From positions 1 to 33,467 of the forward strand of contig QHRA01000180.1 in assembly GCA_003221295.1 (NCBI GenBank): a DNA stretch of 33,467 nt, in the 5' to 3' direction. Below, one piece after another: positions 9,739 to 29,627 of the stretch. Numbering within the stretch: position 1 is the stretch's first letter; every line of letters starts with the position of its first letter. The notes beneath the pieces were generated by a model. It was not told the DNA's origin. It ran no database searches and was given only the letters and a program-made list of their open reading frames with translations. The position numbers and the translations under genes were made by a program. This DNA comes from Verrucomicrobiota bacterium. GTDB lineage: Bacteria > Verrucomicrobiota > Verrucomicrobiia > Chthoniobacterales > UBA10450.

Positions 9739-9818
9739 TTGCCTTCGTTCTGGTGACGGTGATCCCGAGTGGGCCGACGCTCCCTCCGATGGAGCAAAAG
9801 TGTTCCCATCGCGCCCGA

Positions 9819-10212
9819 ACGTCGATGCACACCAGCGGCAGGATCATTTCCTTGAGCTCGATTTGATCGACGGTGCGCAGGCCTTTATGAAAATGCGCCG
9901 GTGGATCCGCGTGCCCCATTGACCAACATGAGTAAAGATCTCGGCAAAAAAACCGTCGCCCATCATGCTGGGTTGCTTTTCGTACCACTAAATCGTTTTG
10001 CGTTGTTCGTTGGGAAAACCGGACCAATGTGGAATTCCTGGCGCGAAGTCGTGAGTAAGATCCACAAACTTTTTGCTGGCCATGATCTTCTGTAGATCGA
10101 TCAGAGAAATTTCTGGCAACGGTTCACGAGCCAAAACGCGGATCGGGCCAGTCCAAAACGCGCTGCTCAAGACTACGACAGCCAGTCCTTGGCTCAAGAG
10201 CGAAGTTTTCAC
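9819..10212 (-). pseudogene. Secreted cyclase family protein (kynurenine-formamidase-like), broken
   Basis: The 5' part encodes a signal peptide (MKTSLLSQGLAVVVLSSAF, then a likely cut near VLA-REP) and the cyclase-family motif F-V-D-L-T-H-D-F-x-P-G-I-P-H-W-x-G-F-P. A TAG at 9988-9990 interrupts the frame. Reading on gives G-D-G-F-F-A-E-I-F-T-H-V-G-Q-W-G-T. Then a small deletion, plausibly four bases lost from a tandem acgc, shifts to the frame of H-A-D-P-P-A-H-F-H-K-G-L-R-T-V-D-Q-I, which holds the usual H-x-D-x-P-x-H metal site. After L-V-C-I-D-V the similarity stops, so the last third of the gene is gone. Intact homologues are metal-dependent hydrolases of cyclic or formyl amides. Confidence 0.75.
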
Positions 10213-11222: not shown

Positions 11223-13175
11223 ATGCATCGCGTTCTCGATCGGCAGCAGGGCAACCAGATTTCAGCAGGCCTTTGTGCACTCGCGATCATGACAAAAGCG
11301 CCGCGGGCCGGCGCTGTGAAAACGCGATTGCAACCACCGCTTACTCCGGAGGAAGCAGCGGATTTGAATATTTGTTTCTTGCGCGATATCGCCGATGCGA
11401 TTTCGCGCGCGACCTGTAGCGTTTGCGAGGGTCTGCGACCGCCGGAACAAGATACAATCGCCCGCGGTGTTGGCGTTTTTACCCCGGCGGGCAGCGAAAG
11501 AGAGTATGCGGGCATTTTGCCGCCTGATTTCGATTTGATTCTGCAACGCGGCGATGGTTTCGGCGAGCGATTGATCAACGCCGCCGACGATTTGCTGCAT
11601 GTTGGTTTCAAATCCTGTTGCCTGATTAATTCAGATAGCCCCACCGCGACGGCCGACGCGTTTCGCGAGGCAACAGCACAGTTGCAAGGCGCCGACGATC
11701 GAATCGTGCTCGGGCCATCCGATGATGGCGGTTATTATTTGATTGGGATGAAAAAATTATACCGCCGCCTTTTCCAGGAGATCGATTGGAGCACGGAGCG
11801 TGTTTTTACTCAGACACTGGAACGCGCGCGTGAGATCGGATTGAAGGTTCACATCCTTCCAAGCTGTTTCGATGTTGATGATCGCGCCGCCCTGCAGCGC
11901 CTCTGCGATGAATTGCTTGGCGAAAGTCTCACCGCCGCGCCGGCGACAAAAAAGCTCTTGGCCGATACCATTGCCAGAGAGGGTCGCGAGAGAATTTGGC
12001 CAACCGCCGAATCCACAGAAAAGGCGCTTGGCACAAGCGCCTCTATTAAGGAAATGAAGCGCGCGCTCGTCACGGGCGGGGCAGGCCTAATTGGTTCGCA
12101 CGTTGCCGATTTGCTTGTGCGCGAAGGCTGGCGCGTGCGGATCCTCGATAACCTCGAACCGAACACCCATAAACGCGGCAGACCGGCTTGGATCAACCGC
12201 GACGCCGAATTTGTGCAGGGCGATGTGCGCGATCGTGCCACGATTGAGAACGCGCTTTCTGGCACCGACATCGTTTTTCATCAGGCGGCCTACGGCGGCT
12301 ACATGCCGGAGATGGCTAAATACGTGGAGGTGAATTCACTGGGCACCGCGCAAATGCTCGAAGTCATTCGCGAAAAAAATTTCCCGATCAAAAAAGTTAT
12401 CGTGGCGAGCTCGCAGGCGGTTTACAGCGAAGGCGCGGGTGAGTGCCCGAAACACGGTCTCGTTTTTCCCAGGGTGCGGCCGGTGGAACAGTTGCAACGC
12501 GGCGATTGGTCGGTGCGCTGTCCGATTTGCAACGAGCCCACCAGGAGCGTGCCTACGCCCGAGCACGCACCGGTTGGCGGAGAAACGGTCTATGGATTGA
12601 CTAAAGTCGATCAGGAAAAACTGGTGTTGCTCTGGGGAAAACAAGTGGGGATCCCGACCGTGGCGCTCCGTTACTCGTGCACCTATGGGCCGCGCCAATC
12701 AATCTTTAATCCCTACACCGGCGTGATCGCGATTTTCTGCACGCGCCTACTTAATAGTTTGCCCCCTGTCCTTTACGAGGATGGAGAGCAGACGCGCGAT
12801 TTTTCTTTCGTCGAGGATGTCGCGCGCGCGAATTTGCTCGCCGCTACCACTGATGTGCTGGATGGCCTGCCGGTGAACGTCGGTAGCGAGAAAGGCGTGA
12901 CCGTGCGCGAGATTGCGCAGCGCGTTTCCGAAGCGCTCGGAATAAGAATCGCGCCGGAAATTAACGGCGAATTTCGGCCCGGCGAGATGCGGCATCTCAT
13001 CAGCGGGACGGATACGATTCGGGCTGCCGGTTATGTCCCGCAAGTCGATTTGCCCGAAGGACTCGGCCGTTATCTTGATTGGATTCGTTCACAAAGCGAT
13101 GTGCGCGATTACTTCGGCGAAGCTGCTGAAAATTTGCGCAACAAAGGCATCGTTCATCGCGTCGGGATCTCATGA
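11223..13175 (+). CDS. Fusion: TIGR04282-type glycosyltransferase A domain + NAD-dependent epimerase with zinc-ribbon insert
   Basis: A 650-residue protein with two complete domains. Residues ~17-250 match the TIGR04282/DUF2064 nucleotidyl/glycosyltransferase family: A-I-M-T-K-A-P-R-A-G-x-V-K-T-R-L at the start, N-S-D-S-P, and L-G-P-S-D-D-G-G-Y-Y-L-I-G. Residues 278-650 are an extended SDR with T-G-G-A-G-L-I-G (284-291), S-S-Q-A-V-Y, and Y-G-L-T-K (457-461). Between the catalytic Ser and Tyr is an insert with C408-x2-H411 and C433-x2-C436, a probable zinc ribbon. The M at 278 (ATG 12054) could be the old start of a separate epimerase. The linker just before it is encoded by a palindromic repeat. 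The 3' end overlaps the next gene by four bases. Substrate sugar is unknown. Confidence 0.85.
   Translation: MHRVLDRQQGNQISAGLCALAIMTKAPRAGAVKTRLQPPLTPEEAADLNICFLRDIADAISRATCSVCEGLRPPEQDTIARGVGVFTPAGSEREYAGILPPDFDLILQRGDGFGERLINAADDLLHVGFKSCCLINSDSPTATADAFREATAQLQGADDRIVLGPSDDGGYYLIGMKKLYRRLFQEIDWSTERVFTQTLERAREIGLKVHILPSCFDVDDRAALQRLCDELLGESLTAAPATKKLLADTIAREGRERIWPTAESTEKALGTSASIKEMKRALVTGGAGLIGSHVADLLVREGWRVRILDNLEPNTHKRGRPAWINRDAEFVQGDVRDRATIENALSGTDIVFHQAAYGGYMPEMAKYVEVNSLGTAQMLEVIREKNFPIKKVIVASSQAVYSEGAGECPKHGLVFPRVRPVEQLQRGDWSVRCPICNEPTRSVPTPEHAPVGGETVYGLTKVDQEKLVLLWGKQVGIPTVALRYSCTYGPRQSIFNPYTGVIAIFCTRLLNSLPPVLYEDGEQTRDFSFVEDVARANLLAATTDVLDGLPVNVGSEKGVTVREIAQRVSEALGIRIAPEINGEFRPGEMRHLISGTDTIRAAGYVPQVDLPEGLGRYLDWIRSQSDVRDYFGEAAENLRNKGIVHRVGIS
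12022..12042. repeat. Palindromic repeat unit inside the fusion gene linker
   Basis: A perfect 9-bp stem (aggcgcttg / caagcgcct) with a 3-base gca loop. The 22 bases from 12024 recur with one mismatch at 14745 in a non-coding gap. In the gene it encodes K-A-L-G-T-S-A within the region joining the two domains. This suggests a dispersed REP-like element. Confidence 0.65.
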
Positions 13176-14693: not shown

Positions 14694-14744
14694 GCTTGTA
14701 GTCTGTGTTCAGGACCACCGTGCGACGTCAGAAGCATAGAGCAT

Positions 14745-14766
14745 GCGCTTGGCACAAACGCCTCTA
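14745..14766. repeat. Second copy of the gcgcttggcacaa palindromic repeat
   Basis: These 22 bases match 12024-12045 at 21 positions. It lies in the 92-bp gap between the GT2 gene and the molybdopterin oxidoreductase. The left flank differs from the first copy, so only the core is shared. Confidence 0.6.
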
Positions 14767-14785
14767 CAACTCATAGTCGCAAGTA

Positions 14786-16348: not shown

Positions 16349-16353
16349 AACGT

Positions 16354-16402
16354 TGTAGCCGGCATCGGTGATGCCGGCCCGCGGACAGCGACCGCGGCTA
16401 CA
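16354..16402. repeat. Cruciform-like repeat: outer stem with two inner hairpins
   Basis: Outer arms tgtagccg (16354-16361) and cggctaca (16395-16402) pair. Inside, gccggcatc and gatgccggc form a hairpin with a 3-base loop, and ccgcgg repeats around a 7-base loop. It starts five bases after the oxidoreductase stop. Its right end recurs near 28398-28411. An open frame of the next gene extends into it, which argues against the ATG at 16368 as a start. Confidence 0.7.
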
Positions 16403-16433
16403 ATTCGCTCGGAGTGACAGCGCGTGTTTATTA

Positions 16434-17626: not shown

Positions 17627-17703
17627 ATCCCGAGCGAAGTCGAGGGATCCCGGTGCGGAAGCTTTAAGGTAAGTTGGCGGGCTCCCTCGACTTCGCTCGG
17701 GAT
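17627..17703. repeat. Perfect 21-bp inverted repeat between converging genes (copy 1 of family)
   Basis: Positions 17627-17647 and 17683-17703 are exact reverse complements, beginning atcccgagcg, with a 35-base centre containing ctttaagg. It lies between the converging YbdK-type ligase and SDR genes. Three related copies occur at 18459, 28503 and 29515. The long stem could end transcription in both directions, but there is no T-tract. Confidence 0.85.
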
Positions 17704-18458: not shown

Positions 18459-18570
18459 GTCATCCCGAGCAAAACCGCCAGTCCGGCTCGGACCGAGGGA
18501 TCCCTCTGTGTTACTTTAAAGGTTGCGCAACGGGATCCCTCGATCCGGCAGCTGGCGGACTCGGGATGAC
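18459..18570. repeat. atcccgag-family inverted repeat (copy 2), overlapping the nfo 3' end
   Basis: Outer arms gtcatcccgag (18459-18469) and ctcgggatgac (18560-18570) pair. The centre has actttaaagg and two ggatccct blocks shared with the other copies. The nfo stop codon at 18516-18518 lies inside it, so the last ~17 nfo codons are repeat-derived. Confidence 0.8.
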
Positions 18571-25631: not shown

Positions 25632-25682
25632 CGGAGGGACGAGCTTCCGCTCGTCCCGGACGCGCAGAAGCGCGTCCCTCCG
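25632..25682. repeat. Cruciform-like repeat between converging genes
   Basis: Outer arms cggaggga (25632-25639) and tccctccg (25675-25682) pair. Inside are two hairpins: gggacgagc/gctcgtccc with a ttcc loop, and ggacgcgc/gcgcgtcc with an agaa loop. The plan of outer stem plus two hairpins matches 16354-16402. It begins eight bases after the upstream stop. Confidence 0.8.
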
Positions 25683-28502: not shown

Positions 28503-28567
28503 GGATCCCGCGGAAGTTACCTTAAGGATTACGCGACGGGATCCCTCGACTTCCGCTCGGGATGACG
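28503..28567. repeat. atcccgag-family repeat (copy 3, shortened)
   Basis: It contains ggatcccg, ccttaagg and ggatccctcgac, then ctcgggatgac abutting the mutM stop codon. The left outer arm is missing, so only part of the element is present. It lies between the converging ATP-grasp and mutM genes. Confidence 0.7.
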
Positions 28568-29514: not shown

Positions 29515-29627
29515 GTCATCCCGAGTCCGGCAGCTGCCGGATCGAGGGATCCCGCTGCGTAATCTTTAAGGCAACTTCTACGGGATCCCTCGGTCCGAGC
29601 CGCACTGGCGGTTTTGCTCGGGATGAC
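29515..29627. repeat. atcccgag-family inverted repeat (copy 4)
   Basis: Outer arms gtcatcccgag (29515-29525) and ctcgggatgac (29617-29627) pair. An inner ccggcagctgccgg palindrome and the shared core gggatcccgctg...ctttaagg...gggatccctcgg match copy 2 closely. It lies in the divergent mutM-trxB gap. Confidence 0.8.

Follow-up and report, generated by a model that had tools for sequence, protein, structure and literature searches.

A GTAG-type palindromic doublet as the probable source of the linker in a two-domain ORF of a Chthoniobacterales bacterium

GTAG-tagged REPs and REP dimers are described, in the parts of the 2013 survey drawn on here, as having a GTAG foot and a 6-9 bp stem and as forming inverted dimers (BMC Genomics 2013, PMC3733652). 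According to the same parts, intragenic GTAG dimers encode 20-30 aa, the foot often provides a TAG stop, and intragenic GTAG repeats are most numerous in a verrucomicrobium, Opitutus terrae (PMC3733652). As far as those parts describe them, these dimers are matched by the element reported below in its GTAG foot, its inverted doublet and its coding use (PMC3733652). Their insertions are described there as lying inside genes or at gene ends, whereas here the dimer joins two operon genes (PMC3733652).

The stretch analysed (the window; 33,467 nt, contig QHRA01000180.1) comes from a Verrucomicrobiota bacterium of the order Chthoniobacterales and contains a single stop-free ORF of 650 aa at 11223-13175 (+), in which a TIGR04282 domain is followed by an NAD-dependent epimerase/dehydratase. 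The first domain (11280-11888, +; nucleotidyl/glycosyltransferase-like) covers residues 20-222 and scored 158 bits against the curated TIGR04282 cut-off of 134, the 'arsenosugar' in the family's name being putative here; DUF2064 also matched the first part of the ORF. The family match of the epimerase half (12054-13175, +) starts at residue 281, with a PF01370 score of 141 bits against a cut-off of 20.9, and both the Rossmann GxxGxxG (TGGAGLIG) and the YxxxK (YGLTK) motifs are present. The two domains aligned over their full length with those of sister genomes and kept their family matches. The two-domain ORF proposed in the initial annotation is therefore real, as judged from the open frame and the two matches above cut-off. 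A cysteine-bearing insert in the epimerase, CPKH...CPIC (12444-12539), resembles a zinc-binding loop and lies between the Rossmann half and YxxxK.

In the relatives, the TIGR04282 domain is encoded by a gene of its own. Two separate ORFs were found at all 26 sister loci examined, consistent with the earlier prediction that orthologues would be split. A family search gave matches in 75 of 83 genomes at the cut-off used, and a stop-free two-domain frame occurred only in the assembly of the window, the one genome from which the fused state is known and whose assembly is fragmented, 87% complete and 6% contaminated. No other stop-free fusion was detected among 213 genomes of the order at a strict cut-off, and orthologues fused through an unrelated linker, the outcome named beforehand as contradicting a repeat-made fusion, were met in neither the family nor the order set. 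An open frame of 760 in G032 was considered as a second fusion and rejected: in the DNA of G032 itself (L060) the two genes are separated by a TAG, and the frame of the epimerase does not extend into the following gene.

The junction of the two domains contains the hairpin AGGCGCTTG-GCA-CAAGCGCCT at exactly 12022-12042 (unstranded), a perfect 9-bp stem with a 3-nt loop, as had been claimed. The window holds three perfect 9-bp stems with loops of 3-5 nt, where 0.5 would be expected; those at 16358 and 25636 are likewise feet of GTAG/GGAG palindromes. The core of the hairpin recurs at 14745 with one mismatch (3 matches against 0.28 expected), within an intergenic doublet at 14696-14769 (unstranded; 31.9 bits with R1, described below) whose first hairpin is degenerate, in agreement with the reported recurrence in non-coding DNA. 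Genome-wide, three exact copies of the core, three with one mismatch and two with two mismatches were counted, often followed by CTACA(A); with these eight copies, the palindrome is not confined to the junction. The hairpin is the second half of an inverted doublet, about 66 bp long, of GTAG-footed palindromes, complete copies of which read TTGTAG-hairpin-spacer-hairpin-CTACAA over about 60-69 bp. The TTGTAG...CTACAA ends are invariant in the eight seed elements, which were picked partly by these ends. A covariance model of the doublet (R1, 23 pairs) gave at least 49 strand-matches in the genome of the window at E<=0.01, with 150 of 875 candidates scored, and up to at least 86 in other genomes of the genus; these counts are lower bounds in which both strands of a palindrome are counted. 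The majority of nine R1 copies inspected in the genome of the window lie between ORFs. By its anatomy, the doublet is classed as a REPIN/BIME-type (GTAG-tagged REP dimer) element dispersed in this Chthoniobacterales genus, and the description of the repeat as REP-like is upheld by its core counts and R1 matches. The genus may be Udaeobacter, for which no mention of palindromes was found in the literature searched.

Other repeats were observed in the window. A second GTAG palindrome type (TTGTAGCCGGCATCGGTGATGCCGG) at 16353-16403 overlaps the first codons of an ORF called from GTG 16368; sister alignments of this ORF mostly start near residue 30, and its true start is probably further in. Facing GGAG-footed hairpins of the GGGACGAGCTTCCGCTCGTCCC type at 25633-25681 look like those found close to Y1 transposase genes in L167 and L168. 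A further dispersed repeat, with TCGAGGGATCCC as its basis, is present at 17640-17675, 18489-18543, 28516-28549 and 29538-29577 in copies that are 79-86% alike.

Comparison of the junction among relatives showed how the repeat relates to the stop of the upstream gene. In the repeat-free G001, the upstream TGA already overlaps the epimerase ATG (ATGA), 8 nt past the start of a conserved Trp codon. The four nearest sisters, G009, G003, G008 and G005, have the repeat, whole or as remnants, at this junction and yet two separate genes; in them, the upstream gene reads through the repeat and stops at a TGA that overlaps the epimerase start. G008 and G005 have a full 66-bp element between the Trp codon and ATGA (R1, 81.0 and 61.8 bits), which adds a tail to the upstream protein (VVAAVVPTAESTRKALGTSASTTE in G008), and G009 and G003 have shorter remnants with ATGA kept. 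The distance from the Trp codon to the ATG is 8 nt in G001, 26 in G003, 38 in G009 and 77 in both G008 and G005, leaving a remainder of 2 on division by three in every case; this common remainder suggests, though it does not prove, that selection conserved the ATGA overlap. In the window the distance is 57 nt and the remainder 0. In the epimerase protein tree, in which some forks fall below 95/80 support, the five carriers were grouped, with the window sister to G009, then G003, then G008/G005; the short remnants of G003 and G009 would stem from a common insertion. The expectation that split orthologues lack the repeat holds for more distant ones such as G001 and G002 and fails for the nearest sisters. 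In two family relatives (L077 and L070), the TAG stop of the upstream gene at the same junction apparently comes from a GTAG-like repeat foot.

Adjacency of the two genes across Chthoniobacterales would also fit an ancient two-domain enzyme that became split in the relatives, the palindrome of the hairpin having arisen by chance. Against this, all relatives are split and the fused state occupies one terminal branch, the hairpin comes from a dispersed family, and two sisters have full doublets at this junction; we give this explanation almost no chance of being correct.

Within the fused ORF, a decayed GTAG-type palindrome doublet at 11995-12049 (+), REPIN-like and aligned to the 66-bp elements of G008 and G005 (R1, 28.8 bits, E 2e-5), encodes the linker TAESTEKALGTSASIKE, 17 residues rich in small residues. 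Seed elements have the GTAG foot, and the window copy keeps part of the 3' foot (CTCTA), its 5' half being deleted. For the G008 copy, a single long hairpin is predicted (-47.7 kcal/mol, z -5.2), and the window remnant folds no better than shuffles (z -0.8). Relative to G005, the window lacks 21 bp (7 codons) in frame between two GCCA tetranucleotides; the deletion junction, at 12002-12003 (+) with ends that share GCCA, removed most of hairpin 1 as seen against both G008 and G005. In addition, where the sisters have CTCTA-CAAGG, the window has CTCTATTAAGG (12045-12048, +), which differs from CTCTACAAGG of G005 by one substitution and one extra base. This base, at the 3' edge of the repeat, shifts the upstream frame beyond the TGA into the epimerase frame and joins the two domains, a stop bypass found only in the window when compared with the sisters. 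The initial annotation had proposed that a REP-like insertion between two genes removed or bypassed a stop and thereby fused them. The repeat did supply the linker and the stop is bypassed in the window; however, since four sisters carry the repeat or its remnants and have two genes, the insertion by itself was not the fusing event, and the bypass came with the later extra base. Destruction of a stop by the repeat itself was dropped as the default reading, because the repeat-free G001 already has ATGA and the insert keeps the phase. The ancestral state of the junction is not certain, since the spacers of G006 and G010 are different.

The fusion depends on one base, and an assembly or sequencing error at 12046-12047 would leave two genes overlapping at ATGA as in the sisters, with 12041-12051 reading CTCTACAAGG or CTCTATAAGG. 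The assembly is metagenome-like and fragmented, all other genomes are split, and apparent frameshifts exist in the sister assemblies G009, G004 and G006. Those in G009 (L224) and G004 (L231) affect the next methyltransferase gene and the epimerase, respectively, and are either real or assembly errors. On the other hand, some 19.2 kb of the window's coding sequence aligned to the sisters gene by gene in single frames with no other unexplained frameshift. A chance indel error within the 57-bp linker is therefore unlikely; zero events in 19.2 kb put its chance at about 1% or less, a bound that takes no account of the locus having been picked as fused. Furthermore, the change is from C to TT and involves no long homopolymer. 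We regard an error as improbable, and the extra base as likely, though not proven, to be real. The only other frameshift in the window relative to several sisters is in a truncated cyclase-family gene (about 9818-10212), which looks like a true pseudogene: this putative cyclase remnant, on the - strand, is truncated at 9817 and frameshifted near 9908, and its counterpart in G008 is a PF04199 protein of 282 aa.

Taken as real, the extra base completes the series of events that we favour. A REPIN-type element of about 66 bp would have inserted after the TIGR04282 gene and before the epimerase gene, in the common ancestor of the window, G009, G003, G008 and G005. With a length of 22 codons and no stop in the frame used, the element could have become the C-terminal tail of the upstream protein. 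This tail would have ended at the ATGA overlap with the epimerase, the arrangement displayed by G008 and G005 and, with shortened remnants, by G009 and G003. In the lineage of the window, a 21-bp in-frame deletion would then have taken most of hairpin 1, and one additional base at the 3' edge of the element would have carried the upstream frame past the TGA. The outcome would be the single 650-aa ORF with a linker derived from the repeat, and we consider it probable that insertion, deletion and base gain together produced it. Recombination appears to have contributed as well. The window is mostly 92-100% identical to G009 on either side of the junction but only 20-67% across 11883-12035, a stretch in which it is closer to G008 and G005 than to its nearest relative, G009. 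This conversion-like tract covers the junction, so it is uncertain in which order the deletion, the recombination and the base gain took place.

We also considered how the junction would be translated. ATG 12054, which the initial annotation had noted as retained, is in frame and occupies the position of the epimerase start of the nearest sisters. In the sisters, termination at the overlapping stop and translation of the epimerase are probably coupled; coupling by termination-reinitiation at ATGA pairs has been documented (PMC6728339, PMC10666635). In the window, the sister-type stop lies out of frame, so ribosomes would be expected to run on into one polypeptide. The ATGA-coupled pair would thereby have become one polypeptide, and making the epimerase on its own would depend on internal starts at 12054, which are expected to be weak: AAGGA lies 1-2 nt from this ATG, closer than the usual Shine-Dalgarno spacing, and the ATG is preceded at 11 nt by the end of a stable hairpin. 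The fusion could instead be real in DNA and neutral, with ribosomes also starting at ATG 12054 and the epimerase still made alone, a reading that shares the origin set out above and differs in its consequence. The ATG and its context (AAGGAAATG) are kept, and both domains align full-length with those of the sisters and retain their family matches, as this reading would have it. The position of AAGGA, the upstream hairpin and the loss of the overlapping stop, the probable coupling partner of initiation in the sisters, argue against it. We judge a neutral fusion plausible, at somewhat less than even chances.

Bacterial gene fusions are usually inferred after the event. Here, the split, repeat-extended and fused states are all present in close relatives, which lets each step be followed at single-base resolution, from mobile repeat to coding tail, stop/start overlap, one-base shift and fusion. 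The case, from one soil bacterium, illustrates a way for a palindromic repeat to become protein sequence. The full element is a multiple of three in length and open in the frame used, and a REPIN might act as a ready-made linker that first gives a coupled, tail-extended pair and then, one base change later, a working bifunctional enzyme. That this could be a recurrent route to fusion in repeat-rich Verrucomicrobiota is offered tentatively, and we consider the whole reading less likely than not.

Y1 (RAYT-type, PF01797) transposase genes were found in 11 of 11 genomes of the genus, and RAYT transposases may mobilise the doublet. G[TG]AG-footed hairpins flanked these genes 28 times against about 1.6 expected in simulated sequence; none was of the R1 sequence type, and the flanks searched in the genus genomes held other GTAG/GGAG hairpins only. 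The doublet is like REPINs in being an inverted REP pair predicted to form a single hairpin, dispersed and mainly extragenic, and differs in its spacer of only about 12-17 bp (Bertels and Rainey 2011, PMC3116915). As in REPIN/RAYT systems, RAYT-type genes reside in the same genomes as the repeat; unlike in those systems, no RAYT gene flanked by the exact R1 repeat type was found here (PMC3116915). The literature searched contained no report of this repeat sequence type in this genus, nor of two operon genes joined through a linker of repeat origin, with intermediates visible in sisters. Rickettsia palindromic elements are likewise palindromic mobile repeats translated in frame within a protein (PMC10969869). 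They are about 150 bp long and insert within genes, whereas the element described here, at about 66 bp, lies between two genes that a later frameshift would have fused (PMC10969869). GTAG repeats inside genes, including those of a verrucomicrobium, have already been published; the joining of two operon genes through a linker from such a repeat would be the new aspect.
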